From positions 1 to 64,000 of the forward strand of contig JAAYVD010000114.1 in the NCBI GenBank assembly GCA_012517355.1: 64,000 nucleotides of DNA. The letters run 5' to 3'. The notes under the pieces are model-generated. The model was not told where the DNA came from. It was given only the letters and a program-made list of their open reading frames with translations, and made no database searches. Source of the DNA: Candidatus Rifleibacteriota bacterium. Its GTDB lineage: Bacteria; Muiribacteriota; Ozemobacteria; Ozemobacterales; Ozemobacteraceae. Below are positions 18,513-36,868 of the stretch, one piece after another (the first letter of the stretch is position 1; the number at the start of each line of letters is the position of its first letter). Position numbers and translations under genes: made by a program.

Positions 18513-20165
18513 ATGGCCATTCGATCGTCACGGTTCGTTCTGGTTTTGTCCGCCGCCCTTTTGCTGGCTTTTTGTACCAGCGCCTCCGCCCTGTTCTTCG
18601 ATCCGGTCATCCAGGCGAAGGTCTGGGCCGACCGCATCGACGGGCTGATCAAGGAGAACAAAAACGCCCAGGTCGAGGCCGAGACCCAGAAGTTCATCTC
18701 CTGGCTCAAGAAGTACGACCAGAACTATCCCCGCCTCGAAAGCTTCATCGGCACCGCCTACAACCAGAAGGCGACCGCCGAGGCCAAGCAGGGCAAGTAC
18801 AACGAGGCCGCCAACACCATCCGCGAGTCGCATGCCTGGAAGCCCAATCCCGGCAATATCGACAAGGTCATGAAGTATGAGCAGAACGATGCGGCCCAGC
18901 GCGAGTACTACGCCAAGGCCCTGGAATTCCAGAACAAGCGGATCGAGCTCAAGCGCCAGATCCTCAACCTCGTCCAGCAGAAAGAGAAGCTGGTCAACGA
19001 GCTGCTCAAGGCCAAAGACGTGACCAAGGAGCAGCTGGAGAAGCTGCAGGCCAGCCTGAAGGAACTGTCCGCCAAGGTCGCGGCGGCGCGCAAGGAGATG
19101 TCCGACATCCACGCCGCCTACGTGAAGGACACCGAAAAGTTCCGCAAGGACGAGATCGTCTTCAACGCCCGCCAGGCCGCCGTCATCAACGCCAAGGCCC
19201 AGACTGCCGCCAAGCTGGTCACCGCCATCGGGCAGGTCGAGACCCGCGTGGCCAAGGGCCTGCTGACCATCACCGAGAAGTACAAGTGGTCCTGGTCCGG
19301 TCTGGAAGAGCTGCTCGGCAAGATGAAGGACCTGCAGGTCAAGATCATGGACCTGCAGAAGCAGATGCTCGGCATCATGGACAAGAAGCCCCTGACCGAT
19401 GCCGACAAGAAGAAGCTGCTCGAACTGAAGGAACAGCTCGACAAGCTCCTGGAAGAGCAGAACAAGCTGATGGCCGACCTCGAGAAGGCCTTCATGGACA
19501 CCAAGACCTTCAACAAGCTGACCCCTGACCAGCAGGCGAAGTACCTCGAGATGTTCAAGACCATCCGCGAGGCCGACAACGTCATCGACAAGACCACCGC
19601 CAAGATCGAAGCCTTCCTGAAGCAGATGGTCGTGAAGTACGGCGACCTGAACAAGGATGGCAAGATCGACGCCCTCGACCTGGCCCAGATGGCCCGCCTC
19701 CTGATCGGCATCCGCCCCATGATCTGGCCCTGGAACCCGATTCCGGCCGCCGACCTCGACGGCGACGGGCACCTCACCTGGGCCGACTACAACCTGCTGA
19801 AGGAAGCCGTGTCGGGCGACCGCAAGACCTTCCCCGTCGATCCCGCGAACAAGCCGGGTGACATGGACGGCAACGGCGTCATCGATCACGAGGACGTCTA
19901 CATGGTGGCCAAGTACATCACCGATCCCAAGAGCTTCGCCAAGATCTATGGCAAGATCGCGGACGTCAACGGTGACGGCAAGGTCAACATGGAAGACCTC
20001 TCCGCCCTGATCAAGAACATCACCACCCCCGTCGTCCCCGTGGCGAAGGATGGGACCGTGGCCTCCGAGACCATGGTGGCCTCCGGGACCGGTGACGCCA
20101 CCGGCGCCACCACCGGCGACACCGGCACCGGCGACGCGGCCGACACCCTCGACAGCGGCTACTGA
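18513..20165 (+). CDS. Exported coiled-coil protein with four dockerin-type calcium loops
   Basis: A 550-residue protein: signal peptide (to about residue 26, ASA), a TPR-like segment (about 50-125), a long Lys/Glu/Gln coiled coil (about 130-365), then four EF-hand-like dockerin loops at about 376, 412, 448 and 484 (GDLNKDGKID, ADLDGDGHLT, GDMDGNGVID, ADVNGDGKVN). Two dockerin modules in tandem should bind calcium and could attach to a cohesin partner, none of which is encoded in this window. The tail is Gly/Thr/Asp-rich and ends ADTLDSGY, a motif shared with two other proteins of this block. It likely forms an extracytoplasmic fibre or scaffold next to the pilin cassette. Confidence 0.82.
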   Translation: MAIRSSRFVLVLSAALLLAFCTSASALFFDPVIQAKVWADRIDGLIKENKNAQVEAETQKFISWLKKYDQNYPRLESFIGTAYNQKATAEAKQGKYNEAANTIRESHAWKPNPGNIDKVMKYEQNDAAQREYYAKALEFQNKRIELKRQILNLVQQKEKLVNELLKAKDVTKEQLEKLQASLKELSAKVAAARKEMSDIHAAYVKDTEKFRKDEIVFNARQAAVINAKAQTAAKLVTAIGQVETRVAKGLLTITEKYKWSWSGLEELLGKMKDLQVKIMDLQKQMLGIMDKKPLTDADKKKLLELKEQLDKLLEEQNKLMADLEKAFMDTKTFNKLTPDQQAKYLEMFKTIREADNVIDKTTAKIEAFLKQMVVKYGDLNKDGKIDALDLAQMARLLIGIRPMIWPWNPIPAADLDGDGHLTWADYNLLKEAVSGDRKTFPVDPANKPGDMDGNGVIDHEDVYMVAKYITDPKSFAKIYGKIADVNGDGKVNMEDLSALIKNITTPVVPVAKDGTVASETMVASGTGDATGATTGDTGTGDAADTLDSGY

Positions 20166-21937: not shown

Positions 21938-22753
21938 ATGAAGGCCCGTCGCACCCCCCGGTTCCCGTGTGCCGTTCCCGGCCGCGCCCTTCCGGCCCTT
22001 TGCGCGGTGGTCCTGGTTTCCCTGCTCCTGCCCGGCGGGTTGTCGGCCGGCGACAAGGATCCCGTCGCCTCCGAACCCATCGGGGTGGAGAAAGGCATGT
22101 CCACCATGTCGACCAAGAGCAGCGCGACGATCATGTCCCCCAAGTCCTCCGCCGCGGATTCCGCCCAGCCGCCGATGTACTCGACCGACGAGAACACCGA
22201 CCTGCTGGAACGGGCCATCGAACGGTTCAACCGCGAGCACTGCCCGCCGATGACCCCCATCCGCGAGATCACCCGCTCCACCCTCGGAACCCTGGCGAAA
22301 TACGAATACATCCCCCAGGACACGAGCAAGTATGAAAAGATGGTGATCCGCAACGGCAAGGTGTACAAACCGGTCGACCAGAAGACCGACCCCGGCCAGA
22401 CGACCCCCAGCTTCCCCACCGGCAAGGTTCCCGATTCCCTGATGGGTGTCCTCGAGGTCGTCTCCGAAGGCCTGACCGAAAACTCCCCGACCGGCAAGGG
22501 CACGCCCGCCCCGCCCAAGACGGTTCGCGTCGACGAGCGACGCGGGACCTTCCGCAACGCCAACGGGGAGCTGGTCGAGTTCAAATACTTCGTCCCGTAT
22601 GTTCCGCCCAACCAGACCCCCACTTTCAAGGGCAAGACCGTCAAGGGCGTCCTCGACATGGTGAAGAAGAACGCCCTGCCCGCCAAGTATCAGGGCATCA
22701 GCACCACCACCGGGTCCTCGCGGGTCGCCTCGGGAACGGTGACGGGGAATTGA
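21938..22753 (+). CDS. Exported protein of unknown function
   Basis: A 271-residue protein with an Arg-rich n-region and a long hydrophobic signal peptide (core about residues 18-35, GGLSAGDKDP). The mature protein is Ser/Thr/Pro-rich and unordered at both ends. The middle (about 75-230) has KYEYIPQD, VIRNGKVYKP and ELVEFKYFVPYVPP segments that suggest a small beta domain. No family recognised. AAGGAGG lies upstream of the ATG at 21938, 16 nt after the FecR gene. Its stop overlaps the TTG of the sigma factor gene (TTGA), so its translation may drive sigma factor synthesis. Confidence 0.75.
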   Translation: MKARRTPRFPCAVPGRALPALCAVVLVSLLLPGGLSAGDKDPVASEPIGVEKGMSTMSTKSSATIMSPKSSAADSAQPPMYSTDENTDLLERAIERFNREHCPPMTPIREITRSTLGTLAKYEYIPQDTSKYEKMVIRNGKVYKPVDQKTDPGQTTPSFPTGKVPDSLMGVLEVVSEGLTENSPTGKGTPAPPKTVRVDERRGTFRNANGELVEFKYFVPYVPPNQTPTFKGKTVKGVLDMVKKNALPAKYQGISTTTGSSRVASGTVTGN

Positions 22754-23337
22754 GCCGGAACGGCGCGCCTCCTGACGCCCGGGAACAGGAGGCCGAGCTG
22801 ATCCGGCAGGTCCGGGCGGGCCGGCGGGAGTCCTTCCGGCCGCTGGTCGAGCGGCACTGGCCGCGCATCAAGGGCCTGGCCCGCCGGATCCTGCGGGGCC
22901 CCGACCTGGTCGAGGACATCTGCCAGGAGACCTTCCTGCGGGCGTTCGAGAAACTGGCCTCGTTCGACAACACCCGGGAGTTCGCGCCGTGGCTCGCCAA
23001 GATCGCGGTCAACCTGATCGGGGAGCATTTCCGGAAAGGGGGACAACGGCTCCAGCTGGTGCCGCTCGACGAACGGGTCTTTCCGCGGGCGGTGCCCGAA
23101 CCGGGCGAGGAGGTCATCGGGCGGATGCTGCTCGACGACTGCCTCGAGCGGCTGCCCGTGGCCTACCGCATCATTTTCGTCCTCCGCCACGGCCTGATGT
23201 TCAGCTACGAGGAGATCGCCCAGGTCCTGGACGAGCCCCTCGGCACGGTGAAGGTCAGCCTGTTCCGGGCCCGGGAGATCCTGAAGGTCTTCTGGGCCGC
23301 GGTGCCGACAGAGCTGGCCAGGGAAGGGGTGAAATGA
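22750..23337 (+). CDS. ECF-type sigma factor
   Basis: A 195-residue RNA polymerase sigma factor of the extracytoplasmic-function class. Sigma region 2 includes DLVEDICQETFLRAFEKL (core binding and minus-10 recognition); region 4 includes SYEEIAQVLDEPLGTVKVSL followed by FRAREIL, a helix-turn-helix for the minus-35 element. Region 3 is absent, as expected. The start is TTG, overlapping the previous stop (TTGA); no better in-frame start precedes region 2. The anti-sigma gene follows 1 nt after the stop. It probably directs the envelope regulon that includes the neighbouring genes, but the recognised promoter is not defined here. Confidence 0.92.
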   Translation: MSRNGAPPDAREQEAELIRQVRAGRRESFRPLVERHWPRIKGLARRILRGPDLVEDICQETFLRAFEKLASFDNTREFAPWLAKIAVNLIGEHFRKGGQRLQLVPLDERVFPRAVPEPGEEVIGRMLLDDCLERLPVAYRIIFVLRHGLMFSYEEIAQVLDEPLGTVKVSLFRAREILKVFWAAVPTELAREGVK

Positions 23338-23338
23338 C

Positions 23339-24328
23339 ATGAAGGAACGAACCTGCCACGAGCGTCTGGACTTCCAGGCCTACGTCGACCAGCAGCTTTC
23401 CGGGCCGGAACAGACCGCGGTGGAGAGGCATGTTCGCGAATGCCCGGCCTGCGCCCGGGAACTCGAGCGCACCCGGCTTTTCTTCACCGATCTGCAGGTG
23501 GCCTGCGCGGTCGGCCGCGGGGACCTGCCGACCCCCGCCGAGATCGACGGGGTGATGGCGCGCCTCGCCCGGTCGCACCCGGTTCCCGACTCAGCCGCCA
23601 CCGCCACGGCCCCCTGGGCCGCCTGGATGACCGGCTGGGGGTTCGAAGGCTGGCGCGCCGCCACCGTCGGAGCCGCTCTCGGCCTGCTTCTTCTCATGGT
23701 GTGGGCGGTCCGTTCCCCCGGCCCCCTCCCCCGCCCCGCCACTCCGCCGGCCGTTTCGACGCCGGCCCCGGCCGACCTGTTCGCCTTCACCCTGTCGGCC
23801 CCGCCCAGCCAGGCGCTCGGCGTGGTCGGCAAGCCGGGGGCGAAGATGGCCACCAGGGGGCATCTCCAGTCCGGGACGGTCTACCAACTGCCCTCGGTCG
23901 GCAAGCTGTACGTGACCTTCAAGGGCGAGAACCGCCTGGAACTCTCCAAGCAGGCGCGGTTCGAGGTCGCGGGCACCCGGGTCAGGCTGCACACGGGCGA
24001 CGTCTGGTGCCGCCTGCAACGGACCGGCCGCGACATCGTGGTGGAGACCCCCACCGGCACGGTCACCCCGCTGGGCACCCGGTTCTACGTCGAGGCCACG
24101 CCCCGAGCCACCCGCGTGACGCTCGAGGAGGGCCAGGTGATCCTGCGCACCCGCACGACCACCGTTTCCCTCAAGCGGCCGGGAACCTTGTTCATGCTGA
24201 CCGACGGGACGATCACCACCGAATTCGAAACCCGGGACGTGGCCGTGCAGATCCCCAACTCGCACCTGCCCGACCCCCGAACCCTGGAACGCCCGCCCCA
24301 GGCCGATTCCCTGCAGGACGGCTACTGA
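23339..24328 (+). CDS. Zinc-finger anti-sigma factor fused to a FecR domain
   Basis: A 329-residue membrane protein. The N-terminal cytoplasmic part is a zinc-binding anti-sigma domain with His31, Cys35 and Cys38 (HVRECPAC) and CH at 6-7. One membrane helix follows (about 107-124), then a Pro-rich spacer and an extracytoplasmic FecR domain (about 185-290; VTFKGENRLELSK, VETPTGTVTPLGTRFYVE, VTLEEGQVILRT). This joins in one chain the sigma-holding and signal-sensing halves that FecR-type systems use. It should sequester the adjacent ECF sigma factor until an external signal arrives. It ends ADSLQDGY, close to the tails of the dockerin and FecR proteins. The ATG is 1 nt past the sigma stop. Confidence 0.88.
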   Translation: MKERTCHERLDFQAYVDQQLSGPEQTAVERHVRECPACARELERTRLFFTDLQVACAVGRGDLPTPAEIDGVMARLARSHPVPDSAATATAPWAAWMTGWGFEGWRAATVGAALGLLLLMVWAVRSPGPLPRPATPPAVSTPAPADLFAFTLSAPPSQALGVVGKPGAKMATRGHLQSGTVYQLPSVGKLYVTFKGENRLELSKQARFEVAGTRVRLHTGDVWCRLQRTGRDIVVETPTGTVTPLGTRFYVEATPRATRVTLEEGQVILRTRTTTVSLKRPGTLFMLTDGTITTEFETRDVAVQIPNSHLPDPRTLERPPQADSLQDGY

Positions 24329-24584: not shown

Positions 24585-25508
24585 TCAGGGCAGCGAGGAA
24601 TACCAGCCGGCGAACACGGCGACGTGGTAGGCGAGCAGGTAGAAGGTGACGGTGCCGCGGTAGACGCGGGCGCCGGCCCGGTCGGGGCGGGCGATGTACC
24701 AGCCGCCGGCCACGACGGTCAGGGCCGCCACCACCCCGGGGTAGAGCAGCAGGCTCGTCGCCCCGCCCGGGAAGCGCAGACCCGCGGCATGCCAGAGCAG
24801 GGCGTAGGCCACGGCCACGTTCACCGCCAGCAGCGCCACGGCACCGGCCGGGGTCAGGCGTCCCGAATAGGAATCGACGCCTTCCCGCTCCTCCTCGCGG
24901 CCGAAGGTCTTGCGGCCGAACTCGAAGACGTTGAAGACGAACCAGTTCCCGAGGCCGAACAGCAGGAACGCGTCGTCGGCCTGGGCGGGCTGACGACCGG
25001 TCGCCACGGCGTGGATCAGCATGCCGAGCATGCTGGCCGAGAAGGTGTGGGTGATCGCGTAGAGTTCGAGCTGGGGGCGCAGCCAGTCGCCGACGAAGAA
25101 CTCCATGCGCATCAGCAGGGTGAAGCAGAGCAGAAAGACGTAGGAGACGAAGACCGGCCAGCCCAGGTTGGCGGCGAGCACCCCTTCGAGCAGAAGACAG
25201 AGCAGGGTTCCCGTGCCGAACTCGCCGAGGCCGATCAGGCCGCGGGCCAGCGGCCGTTCGGGGTTGTGCTCGCGGTCGACCGCGTAGTCCTTCACCTCGT
25301 CGAACATCCGCATGTGCAGGAAGCACAGCCAGATCAGGGCGTAGCCGGCCAGCAGCCGCGGCCAGTCGACGGGGTCGGCCCCGGCGGCCGCCGGCCGGGC
25401 CAGGGCCACGTTGGCCGCGAAGAAGGCCGCCACCATCAGCGAGATGCCGAACGGCTCGTGGCGTTCCCGCAGGAACTGCCACCAACGGGCGATCAATCCA
25501 GGATTCAT
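24585..25508 (-). CDS. UbiA-family membrane prenyltransferase
   Basis: A 307-residue protein with about eight hydrophobic helices. The first Asp-rich prenyl-diphosphate site is clear: FDEVKDYAVDREHNPERPLA, the UbiA D-x3-D-x3-D pattern with the following RP. The second site is less typical, with an acidic stretch FEFGRKTFGREEEREG in its place. Family members attach a polyprenyl chain to an aromatic or polar acceptor in the membrane (quinones, haem O, decaprenyl-phosphoribose, archaeal-type lipids). The ATG at 25508 gives the first helix at once; a longer frame to 25733 adds an unlikely Pro/Arg-rich lead. It lies in the same direction as, and downstream of, the formyltransferase and ligase-ACP-HMGR genes, so it may use a product of that set. 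Confidence 0.82.
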   Translation of the reverse strand: MNPGLIARWWQFLRERHEPFGISLMVAAFFAANVALARPAAAGADPVDWPRLLAGYALIWLCFLHMRMFDEVKDYAVDREHNPERPLARGLIGLGEFGTGTLLCLLLEGVLAANLGWPVFVSYVFLLCFTLLMRMEFFVGDWLRPQLELYAITHTFSASMLGMLIHAVATGRQPAQADDAFLLFGLGNWFVFNVFEFGRKTFGREEEREGVDSYSGRLTPAGAVALLAVNVAVAYALLWHAAGLRFPGGATSLLLYPGVVAALTVVAGGWYIARPDRAGARVYRGTVTFYLLAYHVAVFAGWYSSLP

Positions 25509-25881: not shown

Positions 25882-26643
25882 CTACAGGCGCAGCCCTTTC
25901 CGGCGCATGGCCTGGATCTGGGCGAAGGTCGGGTTGCGGGTGTGGGGCGTGCCGGTCGACCGGTTGGGCTCGCCGATCAGCGAGCCGTTCGCCTGGACCT
26001 GCCGGAGGACATCGAGGAGGGTTTCCGCCTCGACCCGGCTCGATTCCATCGGGATGTCGACATACGAGGTGAACCGTTTCGCGTCGATCTCGCGCCGGGC
26101 CACCAGGCGGCCGTCGTCGATCTTCTCGTTCATCCAGTGGATGGTGAAGCCGACCGGGCGGCCCTCCGACCAGGCCCACAGGTCGCACATGGTGCCGCGG
26201 TGGTCGGGCAGCAGCCCGTGGTGGATGTTCAGGCAGCCGATCTTCGGCAGGCCAAGGATTTCGGCCTTGTAGATGTTGCGAGTGCGCAGGTTGACGATCA
26301 GGTCGGGGGCCCCGCCCGCGCGCAGGTGGGCCAGGGTGGCGGGCTCGTTCATGCTGCCGCACCGGAAGATCGGCAGGCCGCGCTCTTCCAGCAGGCGCAC
26401 GCGCGGGTCGCCGCACCGGGCCTGCACGAAGTTGCGCAGCAGCGCCAGGCCCACGCGCGGGGCGCCCAGCACCGGCAGCCCGATCGCGTTGCGCAGCACC
26501 AGCCAGGCCGGGATGCGCAGCAGGACGACCTCCTGCACTGTGACCCCGGGCGGCAGCCGCGCCGGGTCGGTGACCTGCGTCAGCAGGTGCAGGTAGTTGT
26601 CGCGAACGTAAGTGACGTCAGAAGTGACGTAGACGACCCGCAT
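25882..26643 (-). CDS. Formyltransferase-fold enzyme (Fmt/PurN-like)
   Basis: A 253-residue protein of the 10-formyltetrahydrofolate-dependent formyltransferase fold. The N-terminal strand is MRVVYVTSDV. The catalytic Asn-His-Asp triad is present: LNIHHGLLPDHRG supplies Asn and His, and EKIDDGRLVARREI supplies the Asp. There is no second OB-fold domain, so it is shorter than Fmt and closer to PurN or to sugar-amine N-formyltransferases. The N-terminal half has an inserted segment with VTVQEVVLLRIPAWLVL. The ATG at 26643 has GAGGAGG at 5 nt. It lies downstream of the ligase-ACP-HMGR gene, with a REP-like hairpin between them. The acceptor is unknown. Confidence 0.82.
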   Translation of the reverse strand: MRVVYVTSDVTYVRDNYLHLLTQVTDPARLPPGVTVQEVVLLRIPAWLVLRNAIGLPVLGAPRVGLALLRNFVQARCGDPRVRLLEERGLPIFRCGSMNEPATLAHLRAGGAPDLIVNLRTRNIYKAEILGLPKIGCLNIHHGLLPDHRGTMCDLWAWSEGRPVGFTIHWMNEKIDDGRLVARREIDAKRFTSYVDIPMESSRVEAETLLDVLRQVQANGSLIGEPNRSTGTPHTRNPTFAQIQAMRRKGLRL

Positions 26644-26665
26644 AGTGCCTCCTCGAAATCTCGGA

Positions 26666-26730
26666 AATTTCGGGGACACATGACCAAATTGCCGAAAAAC
26701 TCACCAAAAAAGTCATGTGTCCCCGAAATT
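26666..26730. repeat. Long hairpin of a dispersed REP-like family, copy 2
   Basis: Nineteen-base perfect arms (AATTTCGGGGACACATGAC and complement) around a 27-base A-rich loop, with extra CCCCGAAATT direct duplicates on the right side. It fills the gap between the formyltransferase and the ligase-ACP-HMGR stop. It shares its core with 9342-9401. As an RNA it is a very stable stem that could attenuate the downstream genes. Confidence 0.78.
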
Positions 26731-26743
26731 CCCCGAAATTCTG

Positions 26744-29700
26744 TCATTTGCCGCCGGGGCGGCCGTAGCGGGCGTGGGCGTCGGCAAACTGGTCGGCGGC
26801 CATGGCGGCGATCAGCGAGATCTCGCCGGCCACGACGGCGCCGGCGGTGATCTCGGCGAGCTTGCGGGCCTTGCGCGGGCCGTCGCACTCGATGATCTGG
26901 AGGCACAGCTGCTGGGTGGGCAGGCGGGTGCCGCCGCCGATCGTGCCGACCATGATGCCGGGCATGGTGACCGAGACGACCAGGGTGCCGTCGCGCGCCT
27001 CGAGCTGGGTGACGCCTGTGGCCGACTCGGCGACGCAGGCGGGGTCCTGGCCGCAGGCGATGAAGAGGGCGGCCAGGACGTTGGCGTAGTGGGCTTGCGA
27101 GCCGAACGAGTGCGAGTGCAGGGCGCTCATCTGGGCCACCTGGGACAGCCGCACCATCCGTTCGGTGGTGGTGTGGAGGAGGCGCACGACGAGGTCGTCG
27201 GGGATGGCCACCTCGGCCACCACGCGCTTGCCGCGATTGCGGGTGAAGTTGACGCCGTTGATCTTCTTGTCGCCCGACAGGTTGGTCTCGAGGAACCAGT
27301 CGGCAATGCGGCCCTGGTAGTTGGCCAGGATGTGCTGGATCGCCTTGTGCGTGGCGATGGTGGTCATGTTCTGCCCCGAGGCGTCCCCGGTCGAATAGAC
27401 GAAGCGCAGGCAGAGGCTGGATCCCATGGGGAAGGGTTCGATCTGTTCGAGTTTCCCGAACCGGGTGGTCGTTTCCGCGACCTCCTTCAAGACGGGGAAG
27501 TTCATCTCGACCCAGTCGGAGAAAGCGGCCATGTCGGGAATGCTGTGGAACATGAACATGGGGGCGCGCACCAGGCTGTCGGCCAGGACCTTGGCCCGGA
27601 CGCCGCCCGCCATGGTGATCACCTGCACCCCGCGCGAGATCGAGGAGACGAGGGCCCCCTCGGTGGTGGCGAGGGGAATGTAGAAATCGCCCTGCGCGTG
27701 GTCGCCCAGCACCCGCAGCGGCCCGACCAGGCCGAGGGGCAGCTGGCTGAACCCGAAGAACCCTTCGATGTTGCCGGCGAACAGCAGGGGGTCGTCGGGG
27801 CGTGGGATGCTCTTGATGTTCCCAGCCAGGCGTTTCTGCAGGAAGAGCTGTCGCTGCTTGACGGCCTCGGGGCTGTAATCGAGCAGGGGGGGAAGGGCGG
27901 TCTCGCTGGCCGGCCGCTCGGTGGCGCGCAGCTTGTCGAGCTGGCCGTCGCGTTTCATGAAGGCGAAGATGCCGCCGAAATCGCGGATGTCCTGGCCGAC
28001 CAGTTCCTTCAGCGACAGCCCGAACACCTCTTCCAGGTGGGCGATCATCGCGATGGTGCCCAGCGAGTCGAGCTGGACGAACTCGTTCAGGCGGGTGGTC
28101 GGGGCGATGCGGTCGGAGGGGACGTTGAGGAAGTGCGCCAGCACCCCACGGAACCGGTCGAAAAGTTCACGGTCGTAGGCATCGAGCGGGCCGGACGGGG
28201 CGGCCACGGTCGGGGTGGCCGGGCCCGGCCGTCCGCCGGCGCCGCGGGGCGGGGCCAGGGAGGGGGCCAGGGCAGGCGCCGGCGCGAGCCGCTCGGCCAG
28301 CACGTTACGCTGCACCTTGAAGCTGGCCGACCGCGGCAGGGGCGTCTCGAGCAGCACGAGGCGGCGGAACCGCTCCCACTCGGGCCAGTCACGGGTCAGC
28401 GCCTCGATCTCCGCCCGCACGTTCTCGGCGTCGATGGCCAGGTGGCGCTCGGCGAAGAACTCCTTGCGGGCCTTCATCACCAGCACGGGAAACTCGTGGC
28501 CGCCCTCCTGCAGGCCGAGCACGCTGAACTCCTCGGCGAAGGGCAGCACGCCGAGCCGGGCCTCGAGCTCGTCGGGGTAGACGTTCATGCCGCCCGCCGG
28601 GATGATGACGTCCTTGGCCCGGCCCCGGATGTAGACGAACCCGTCGGCGTCGATCGAGGCCAGGTCGCCGGTGCGCAGGTACCCGCCGGCGAAAACCTCC
28701 TTCGTCTGTTCGGGGCTGCCCCAGATGCCGGTCAGCAGGGTCGGCGAGGCGACCAGCAGTTCCCCCACCCCGTCGGCGTTGGGCCGGTCGATCTTCAGTT
28801 CGACGGCGGGAAGCGGCTTGCCGACCGACTCCGGGGGGCCCTCCTCGCACATCACCACGCCGCCGGCCGTCTCGGTCATGCCGAATCCCTGCATCGTCCG
28901 GATCCCGCGTTTGCGGAACGCGTCGATCAGGCCGGCGCTGCAGGCGGCCCCCCCGATGATGACGGTCAGGTTGGGGATGGCGTTCTGCACCGCCCGCAGA
29001 GCCAGGGCGAACACCTCGGCCAGGCGCGGCACCAGCAGGGCGAAGGTGACGCGGTACTTGGCGACGGCGCCCAGGATCTCGGCCGGGTTGAACGAGGTCG
29101 ACAGCACCACCCGGCCCCCGACCGCGAGCGGGGTGAGGCCGGCATCGACCAGGCCGAAGACGTGGGTGAAGGGCAGCAACGCGAGCATCACGTCGTGCGG
29201 GGCGAAGTCGCCGATCTCGAGACCGAGCTTGACGGCCGCCGCGATGGCCCCGTGGCTGAGCACCACGCCCTTGGGCTTGCCGGTGGTGCCGGAGGTGTAG
29301 ATGATGGCCGCCGCGTCCTTGGCCTTGGGGGCGGCGGGCGGCTTGGCCGGGGCCGGCGGGTCGCCGCGCGACTTCAGGATCTCGAACTGGAAGTTGACGA
29401 CCGGGCAGGCGTGGGTCAGCTTGGGGTAGAGGCCGTCCCACCGCTCCTGGAAGCGGCGGGTGACCACGATGGCCGAGGGCGTGCAATCGTCGACGATGTT
29501 CAGCACCCGCTGGTCGGCGCAGGTCCCGTCGACGGGGACGGCGATCGCCCCGTAGCCGGTGACGCCGACGAAGAACGGCAGCCACTTGTAGTGGTTCTCC
29601 CCGACGATCAGGATCCGGTCTCCCTTGTGGACCCCGAGCGTGGCCAGCAGCCGACCGACCTCCTCGACGATCTCCCTGAACTCACCGTAGGTCATGTCGA

Positions 29701-29788
29701 CCCACCGGCCTTCGCCGAGGTCGCACGACATCGCCACCTTGGTGGGCTCGCAGGGGAGGGAGGTCAGGCGCAGGGTTTTCTCGAACAT
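26744..29788 (-). CDS. Trifunctional fusion: acyl-adenylate ligase, acyl carrier protein, HMG-CoA reductase
   Basis: A 1,014-residue protein. Residues 1-500 are an AMP-dependent acyl ligase (TSGTTGKPKG at 165-174, GFGMTETAGG, GYLRTGD at 369-375, RSASFKVQRN with the end lysine). After a Pro/Ala linker, residues about 535-620 are an acyl carrier domain with the phosphopantetheine Ser575 in LDSLG. Residues about 640-1014 are a class I-type HMG-CoA reductase: IEGFFGFSQLPLGLVGPL, TTEGALVSS with Glu710, GDASGQN, GDKKING with Lys841, GQDPA with Asp915 and His1005 near the end, so the full catalytic set is there. Chemically it could activate an acid, load it on its own carrier and reduce the thioester to an alcohol. 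AAGGAG is 6 nt before the ATG and a near-consensus promoter lies upstream. Confidence 0.88.
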   Translation of the reverse strand: MFEKTLRLTSLPCEPTKVAMSCDLGEGRWVDMTYGEFREIVEEVGRLLATLGVHKGDRILIVGENHYKWLPFFVGVTGYGAIAVPVDGTCADQRVLNIVDDCTPSAIVVTRRFQERWDGLYPKLTHACPVVNFQFEILKSRGDPPAPAKPPAAPKAKDAAAIIYTSGTTGKPKGVVLSHGAIAAAVKLGLEIGDFAPHDVMLALLPFTHVFGLVDAGLTPLAVGGRVVLSTSFNPAEILGAVAKYRVTFALLVPRLAEVFALALRAVQNAIPNLTVIIGGAACSAGLIDAFRKRGIRTMQGFGMTETAGGVVMCEEGPPESVGKPLPAVELKIDRPNADGVGELLVASPTLLTGIWGSPEQTKEVFAGGYLRTGDLASIDADGFVYIRGRAKDVIIPAGGMNVYPDELEARLGVLPFAEEFSVLGLQEGGHEFPVLVMKARKEFFAERHLAIDAENVRAEIEALTRDWPEWERFRRLVLLETPLPRSASFKVQRNVLAERLAPAPALAPSLAPPRGAGGRPGPATPTVAAPSGPLDAYDRELFDRFRGVLAHFLNVPSDRIAPTTRLNEFVQLDSLGTIAMIAHLEEVFGLSLKELVGQDIRDFGGIFAFMKRDGQLDKLRATERPASETALPPLLDYSPEAVKQRQLFLQKRLAGNIKSIPRPDDPLLFAGNIEGFFGFSQLPLGLVGPLRVLGDHAQGDFYIPLATTEGALVSSISRGVQVITMAGGVRAKVLADSLVRAPMFMFHSIPDMAAFSDWVEMNFPVLKEVAETTTRFGKLEQIEPFPMGSSLCLRFVYSTGDASGQNMTTIATHKAIQHILANYQGRIADWFLETNLSGDKKINGVNFTRNRGKRVVAEVAIPDDLVVRLLHTTTERMVRLSQVAQMSALHSHSFGSQAHYANVLAALFIACGQDPACVAESATGVTQLEARDGTLVVSVTMPGIMVGTIGGGTRLPTQQLCLQIIECDGPRKARKLAEITAGAVVAGEISLIAAMAADQFADAHARYGRPGGK

Positions 29789-29847
29789 GCGGTTCTCCTT
29801 GTCGGGGCCGGTCCTCTCAGGCCGATCCGGCCGTCAGCCGTGGACCC

Positions 29848-29876
29848 AGGATAGACAAATCCCCCCCGGGTGTAAA
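29848..29876 (-). promoter_or_regulatory. Promoter of the ligase-ACP-HMGR gene
   Basis: On the minus strand, TTTACA (29871-29876), 17 bases, TATCCT (29848-29853). The expected start is near 29841, leaving a leader of about 53 nt with AAGGAG at 29795-29800. It would also serve the formyltransferase and prenyltransferase genes if transcription passes the hairpin at 26666-26730. Confidence 0.68.
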
Positions 29877-35608: not shown

Positions 35609-36868
35609 TCAGAACTCGTAGCCGGCGCGGACCCCCACGTCTTTCTGCAGTTCTGAATACCCGCCGCCGCTGATGACCGCGAATTTCAGCTCGTAGTATC
35701 CCCACTCGACCCTCCGGTGCAGGCGGCTCTCGAGGTTCTGGAGGGAGTCGTCGTCGCCGCCGAACCGGGTGCTGGCCACCTCGAGGCTGATGCGGGTGCG
35801 CTTGGTGACGTTGCGCTGGGCGCTGGCCGACAGGGTGTGGGCGGTCGAGGCGGGGCTGGTCTCGAGCAGGTAGCCCACGCTGAGCGTGTCCTTTCCCTGC
35901 TTCGGAGCGCCCCAGGTCAGGGTTCCCTCGTAGAAGGTGCTGCGCGGCAGCTGGTCGTCGCCGAAGAAGAACCGGCCGCCGACGCCGGTTTCGAGGTAGA
36001 AGGTGCCGAGCTCGACCCCGATGAGGTTGCGGGCCACCCCCGAATCGGTGACACCGTTGTGGAACAACCGGTAATCGCCCGTCAGGTCGACCTTGTGCTG
36101 GTCGTAGTATTGCAGGCCCAGCCGCCAGGTGTCGGTCGCCCCGCTCGAGGCGTATTCCCCCTGCAGCTTGAGGGTCTCGATCTGCCAGCCGACCAGGGCC
36201 GACGAGAACCGGGTCTTGTAGTCCTGGCCACCCTGCACGGCAAGATACGCTTCGTCGTTGAACGCGTAGTGCAGCCGGCCCTCGAACCAGTCGGGCGACT
36301 CGGCCCGGGTCTTCGAGTCGACCTTGGCCGTCTTGCCGATGTCGAGCGTGGTCGATAGCCGGCGCCCCCAGGGATACCACCAGGAAACCCCGTCGACCGG
36401 GCGGAAGGAATGGTTGCCGGTCCAGATGCGGCCGGCTTTGAATTCGAGCGGGGTCGACAGGTTCCGGCCAAAGAAGGAGGCCTGCCACAGCTGGTTCAGC
36501 CGGGGCGCCACCCCCTTGAAGTCCTTGAAGATGACGTGACGGAAATCGAACTCGCTGACCAGCCAGGGGGTCTGGTGGTTGTAGGTCAGACGCTGCGAGG
36601 ATTTTTCGCGGAAGGGGCCGAACGGAGAGAAGGTGCTGGTCTCGGTGCGCTGGAGCCGGCTGGGTTCGCGCACCTGGGCGGGGGCGGGGACCGACAGCAA
36701 TACCCCCATGACCGTGGCCAGCAGAAGCGCCACGGGCAGGCGACCGCGGTTCGTCGTTTGCCTCGTCTTCGTCTCTTCGTTCGCCGGAACCGCAGACCGG
36801 ATCCGGGTTTCTTCCGATTTCCGCCCAACCAGGGCCAGCCTCCCGGGGGGAGGCCACTCTCCTACCAT
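35609..36868 (-). CDS. Outer-membrane beta-barrel-like protein
   Basis: About 419 residues. After a signal peptide (hydrophobic LPVALLLATVMGVLLSVP, cleavage near PAPAQ), the mature chain is rich in alternating aromatic/hydrophobic strands (DFRHVIFKDF, LHYAFNDEAYLAVQGGQ, WRLGLQYYDQHKVDLTGDY) and ends in a C-terminal phenylalanine (RAGYEF), as do many porin-type barrels. No channel family is recognised. The start is uncertain: the ATG at 36868 gives a long 45-residue lead and no ribosome site, whereas a CTG after GGGAGG inside this lead would shorten it. It is flanked by non-coding DNA on both sides. Confidence 0.7.
   Translation of the reverse strand: MVGEWPPPGRLALVGRKSEETRIRSAVPANEETKTRQTTNRGRLPVALLLATVMGVLLSVPAPAQVREPSRLQRTETSTFSPFGPFREKSSQRLTYNHQTPWLVSEFDFRHVIFKDFKGVAPRLNQLWQASFFGRNLSTPLEFKAGRIWTGNHSFRPVDGVSWWYPWGRRLSTTLDIGKTAKVDSKTRAESPDWFEGRLHYAFNDEAYLAVQGGQDYKTRFSSALVGWQIETLKLQGEYASSGATDTWRLGLQYYDQHKVDLTGDYRLFHNGVTDSGVARNLIGVELGTFYLETGVGGRFFFGDDQLPRSTFYEGTLTWGAPKQGKDTLSVGYLLETSPASTAHTLSASAQRNVTKRTRISLEVASTRFGGDDDSLQNLESRLHRRVEWGYYELKFAVISGGGYSELQKDVGVRAGYEF

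Follow-up and report, generated by a model that had tools for sequence, protein, structure and literature searches.

The window analysed here comprises the first 64,000 nucleotides of contig JAAYVD010000114.1, from a metagenome-assembled Riflebacteria genome of the Candidatus Ozemobacter group. On its minus strand, positions 26744-29788 form one open reading frame of 1014 amino acids with an ATG start and no internal stops, and the GC fractions at its three codon positions (0.68/0.46/0.95) are typical of the real genes in the window. Pfam assigned three domains in total to the encoded protein, in the order AMP-binding (aa 15-356, E = 2.6e-70), PP-binding (aa 545-594, E = 6.7e-5) and HMG-CoA_red (PF00368; aa 642-1010, E = 7.8e-105, profile positions 1-368 of 368). 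The original prediction had placed an acyl ligase, a carrier protein and an HMG-CoA reductase (HMGR) on one chain, and the domain order and the intact reading frame bear this out. These data confirm one intact ligase-carrier-reductase gene. A long overlapping open reading frame on the plus strand (26717-29854) was rejected as an antisense by-product of high GC that has no support from relatives. The structure model of the whole fusion was of moderate confidence (mean pLDDT 75.8, pTM 0.48).

Table 1 Features of the fusion gene and its neighbours (window coordinates).
Feature	Coordinates	Strand	Basis
Ligase-ACP-FcrA fusion gene (FcrA type as assigned from sequence)	26744..29788	-	ORF, Pfam, homologues in the phylum
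AMP-forming acyl ligase (ANL) domain with C-terminal subdomain, about aa 15-500	28289..29746	-	Pfam, NCBIfam, Foldseek
Acyl carrier (PP-binding) domain, about aa 537-613	27950..28180	-	Pfam; helical segment in model
Ser575 codon, phosphopantetheine site of the DSLG motif	28064..28066	-	Invariant in 22/22
Predicted FcrA-type (HMGR-fold) reductase domain, about aa 636-1010	26759..27883	-	Pfam, signature residues, tree
Catalytic Glu710 (human Glu559)	27659..27661	-	Alignment
Catalytic Lys841 (human Lys691)	27266..27268	-	Alignment
Catalytic Asp915 (human Asp767)	27044..27046	-	Alignment
Catalytic His1005 (human His866)	26774..26776	-	Alignment
Formyltransferase-like gene, directly downstream of the fusion	25882..26679	-	Pfam Formyl_trans_N
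UbiA-like membrane prenyl/alkyl transferase gene, start set by homology	24585..25508	-	Homology, DExxxDxxxD-type motif
Outer-membrane beta-barrel gene, 5.8 kb upstream of the fusion	35609..36868	-	Homology, model, Foldseek

The N-terminal part was assigned to the ANL fold by Foldseek. NCBIfam models of long-chain-fatty-acid-CoA ligases matched the fusion up to aa 502, and the best ligase-model match was of that type. The core motif is retained (S166, T168, T169, G170 and K173), as is the C-terminal catalytic lysine region, in which K491 is kept in at least 90% of the aligned homologues, in line with the complete ligase that had been predicted. The carrier motif D574-S575-L576-G577 was invariant in all 22 fusion homologues, in agreement with the anticipated phosphopantetheine serine. 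The linker ahead of the carrier helices (aa 503-533) received very low model confidence, suggesting that it is probably disordered, as expected for a swinging carrier.

We then considered how widely the fusion is distributed. A whole-genome search of the phylum, which covered 40 Riflebacteria genomes, recovered the full-length fusion in 21, drawn from families f1 and f8, and four full-length relatives appeared in a scan of genome_contigs, three of them from Candidatus Ozemobacter or Ozemobacteraceae. A 22nd genome, G012, carries a fusion with a decayed ligase (L127:8329-11097), which has lost its C-terminal subdomain and has KSVTTG at its core motif. Neither the DSLG of the carrier nor the catalytic residues have been lost from this copy. 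Judged from its sequence, it fits a carrier and reductase retained as a unit, and loading of the carrier would have to take place in trans. Because the fusion recurs in 20 other Riflebacteria genomes and, with the decayed ligase, in G012, at 43-80% identity, a frameshift or an assembly chimera was ruled out and the gene can be taken as intact. Outside the phylum, the sampling, which is not proof, covered 794 genomes (398 and 396, from the phyla of a Burkholderiaceae and a Streptomyces genome), and no ligase fusion was seen among their 33 reductase-domain matches (E < 1e-40). These were FcrA or HMGR, with a longest open frame of 805 aa and with long N-terminal extensions judged by eye. Plasmids gave no match covering 80% of the fusion query, and six peptide patterns did not find the fusion in genome_contigs beyond Riflebacteria.

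The reductase domain retains the catalytic machinery of HMGR. The predicted residues E710, K841, D915 and H1005 align with the human catalytic residues (Table 1) and were invariant across the 22 fusion homologues. The substrate-binding positions match instead those of FcrA, an HMGR-fold fatty acyl-CoA reductase family described by Grossi et al. in 2025, whose signature is replacement of human Ser684 (Glu in N. pharaonis), loss of the HMG-binding Lys and a bulky residue at 862 (PMC11948995). That lysine, Lys735, is printed as Lys795 in the report (PMC11948995); since human residue 795 is Cys, Lys735 is most likely meant. In the fusions, the Ser684 position is occupied by Glu834 in 21 of 22 sequences (Asp in G012), the Lys735 position falls in an alignment gap with no Lys in any of the 22, and the Leu862 position is Phe1001 in 21, with Leu in the decayed G012 copy. 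Ser, Lys and Leu at these positions were kept by all eight sequences of the HMGR group, namely human, Arabidopsis-type plant 8ECG, archaeal 6HR7, one from a Streptomyces mevalonate cluster and four other bacterial enzymes. The CoA-phosphate residues (571 and 722) did not discriminate, as they vary in true HMGR too. The change of Ser684 to Glu together with the loss of Lys735 removes the HMG carboxylate anchors.

A maximum-likelihood tree resolved the fusion reductase domains as a single clade (100/99), sister to a Vibrio/Photobacterium/Roseinatronobacter type (98/94) and apart from the HMGR group, which splits off at 99/97. On these residues and this tree, from which the assayed FcrA sequences were absent, we assign the fusion reductase to the FcrA type and not to class I HMGR with extra domains. 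The earlier description as class I-like holds for the fold and the catalytic residues and fails for the HMG anchors and the position in the tree.

HMGR-like proteins without the HMG-binding lysine were also seen in Vibrio, Photobacterium and relatives (L129, L130, L135 and L153-L164), with mostly Asp or Glu, and some Ala or Ser, at the Ser684 position. By these residues they are likely FcrA-type reductases; the V. fluvialis protein is annotated as hydroxymethylglutaryl-CoA reductase. A Sinorhizobium plasmid (L132:3046-12718) carries another HMGR-like gene without the HMG lysine, lying between subunits of a biotin-dependent carboxylase and near an indolepyruvate oxidoreductase gene, and its product probably acts on another substrate again.

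Next, we compared the gene neighbourhoods of the fusions. The formyltransferase-like gene, homologues of which recur at 16 of the 21 other loci, has an N/H/D active-site pattern (N151, H153 and D188) invariant in 13 aligned sequences. The UbiA-like gene scored below the Pfam cut-off (30 vs 34.2 bits), and homologues were present in eight of the other 21 loci compared. The outer-membrane barrel, with about 20 strands in its model and porin matches in Foldseek, has homologues in 10 other fusion loci and adjoins or lies near the fusion in several relatives. Three fusion loci add a PPDK_N/PEP-utiliser protein; at L119 an MMPL transporter gene follows the PPDK-like gene, and the other two PPDK loci have homologous ORFs. 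Directly upstream of the fusion in family f8 lies a gene for a DAGK-type lipid kinase (L121:6125-7162, L122:11132-12163 and L124:11405-12460), and a second AMP-binding ligase gene follows the formyltransferase. Elsewhere on the plus strand of the window, a gene for a sigma-70-like factor and, after it, one for an anti-sigma-like zinc-finger/FecR protein (22750-24328) converge on the UbiA gene, and positions 18513-20165 encode a protein with dockerin type I/EF-hand repeats.

A stand-alone FcrA-like gene occurs in a related setting in another phylum, on a plasmid of Roseinatronobacter sp. S2, where it spans the origin of the record (L133:1-8507 and L137:1-850). The gene order there is FcrA-like, UbiA, PPDK/PEP-utiliser-like, DUF3419, two unknown genes and AMP-binding, with glycosyltransferases beside, and the PPDK-like protein is 34% identical to its Riflebacteria counterpart over nearly the whole length. 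That FcrA, UbiA and PPDK genes recur as a set suggests that a lipid pathway is shared, in which we infer that the alcohol is possibly phosphorylated and transferred. Wax esters, the best-studied use of FcrA, do not apply in Riflebacteria and were ruled out as the route, because no WS_DGAT_cat match for a wax ester synthase was obtained in the 40 genomes, although the same search found matches in actinobacterial genomes. A fuller scheme, which is speculative and in our judgement quite improbable, is a phylum-specific route in which a free fatty acid would be reduced to the alcohol entirely on the enzyme's own carrier, phosphorylated by the PPDK-like enzyme (the DAGK-type enzyme in f8) and used for alkyl transfer by UbiA, with a formylated product exported through MMPL and the barrel to give an undescribed class of envelope lipid.

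We consider it likely, from domain and residue content, that the fusion is a fatty acyl reductase of the FcrA type equipped with a ligase and a carrier of its own. We infer carrier loading, on-carrier reduction, the identity of the acid and the end product. The ligase domain would adenylate a long-chain carboxylic acid with ATP and most likely loads it, as an acyl group, on the phosphopantetheine of Ser575. Flexible linkers would let the carrier bring the thioester to the HMGR-fold domain, where Lys841, Glu710, Asp915 and His1005 would most likely reduce it in two NADPH steps to a primary alcohol, the aldehyde not being released. The products of the neighbouring genes would then build the alcohol into a specialised lipid of the cell envelope. 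The suggestion that the HMGR fold reduces a non-HMG acyl thioester by four electrons to an alcohol is strengthened by the lost anchors, the lack of a mevalonate pathway and the FcrA precedent; the chemistry itself had already been published (PMC11948995).

The main competing explanation is that the reductase acts on acyl-CoA made by the ligase and that the carrier only parks or channels acyl chains, since the assayed FcrA uses acyl-CoA. Purified FcrA of Ca. Promineifilum breve uses NADPH to convert acyl-CoA of C14 and longer to the alcohol; HMG-CoA is not reduced, and simvastatin does not inhibit the enzyme (PMC11948995). ACP domains are fused to several bacterial FcrA proteins, and the authors suggest for them an alkyl-carrier role like that of the lipid-carrying Lad domain (PMC11948995). 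The resemblance of the fusion ligase to CoA ligases in NCBIfam and Foldseek points the same way, but the invariance of the carrier serine motif, which extends to the decayed-ligase member, argues against a mere store, and we judge this explanation unlikely. Equally doubtful is an amino or polyketide-type acid, whose alcohol would carry an amine formylated by the neighbouring formyltransferase. The intact active-site pattern and wide recurrence of that enzyme, whose relatives formylate amino sugars or Met-tRNA, speak for such a substrate; however, the best ligase model is of the long-chain-fatty-acid-CoA type, the reductase shows the long-chain signature of FcrA, and an amine could equally sit on the acceptor.

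A true HMG-CoA (or HMG-carrier) reductase that yields mevalonate, with the ligase activating free HMG, would account for all four catalytic residues and for a PF00368 match that spans the full profile. The loss of the HMG carboxylate anchors counts against it, as does pathway content: IspG, found in 37 of the 40 Riflebacteria genomes, indicates that isoprenoids come from the MEP pathway, and neither HMG-CoA synthase nor mevalonate kinase scored over the cut-off in any of the 40. HMG-CoA is therefore an unlikely substrate, and we rejected the true HMGR on its HMG-binding residues and pathway content as extremely improbable. None of the 22 genomes with a fusion has a further HMGR-fold protein. 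A 23rd HMGR match among the 40, in G031, was rejected as a fusion; the protein lies at a contig edge, is only partial and has class II-like motifs.

The original prediction also held that no enzyme of this layout is known to have been characterised. We found no papers on a ligase-ACP-FcrA fusion, and the main text of the FcrA report has neither a ligase fused to FcrA nor Riflebacteria, although it already mentions ACP-fused FcrA (PMC11948995). The chemistry and the family have been known since 2025 (PMC11948995). What appears to be new, in the literature searched, is the ligase-ACP-FcrA chain, together with its conservation within a single phylum and the gene set around it. If our preferred reading of a self-loading FcrA-type reductase is correct, a single protein would convert free fatty acid to fatty alcohol by way of an HMGR fold. 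It would allow a direct test of FcrA on carrier-bound substrates, a carrier role for the fused ACP having so far only been suggested (PMC11948995). The fusion also draws attention to a cluster of lipid genes that is unstudied, in a phylum that has itself received little study, and 'HMG-CoA reductase' annotations in mevalonate-free bacteria need re-reading.

Among known systems, class I HMG-CoA reductase (human 1DQ8, archaeal 6HR7) shares the fold and the four catalytic residues with the fusion, which differs in its replaced HMG carboxylate anchors and Leu862 and in its mevalonate-free genomes. Carboxylic acid reductase (CAR) likewise joins adenylation and carrier domains in one chain and proceeds by activation, an own-carrier thioester and NADPH reduction. 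Its reductase domains are of the short-chain-dehydrogenase (SDR) type and the aldehyde is released, whereas the C-terminal reductase of the fusion has the HMGR fold (PF00368) and is expected to reach the alcohol. FcrA shares with the fusion the fold, the four catalytic residues, the change of Ser684 to Glu, the loss of Lys735, the bulky residue at 862 and genomes without a mevalonate pathway. The Riflebacteria protein differs from it by the AMP-forming ligase fused in front, where the FcrA paper has ACP- and Lad-fused forms (PMC11948995), and by the lack of a detectable wax ester synthase in the 40 genomes. ElbD of myxobacteria, composed of FadD, ACP, FarA and PlsC-like domains and involved in ether lipids (PMC11948995), also joins a ligase and ACP to a fatty acyl reductase and provides alcohol for an unusual lipid; the FcrA authors draw a comparison with it (PMC11948995). 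Its reductase is FarA and not of the HMGR fold, and by Pfam the fusion has neither FarA nor PlsC-like domains; the fusion would be a counterpart of CAR and ElbD made with a different reductase.
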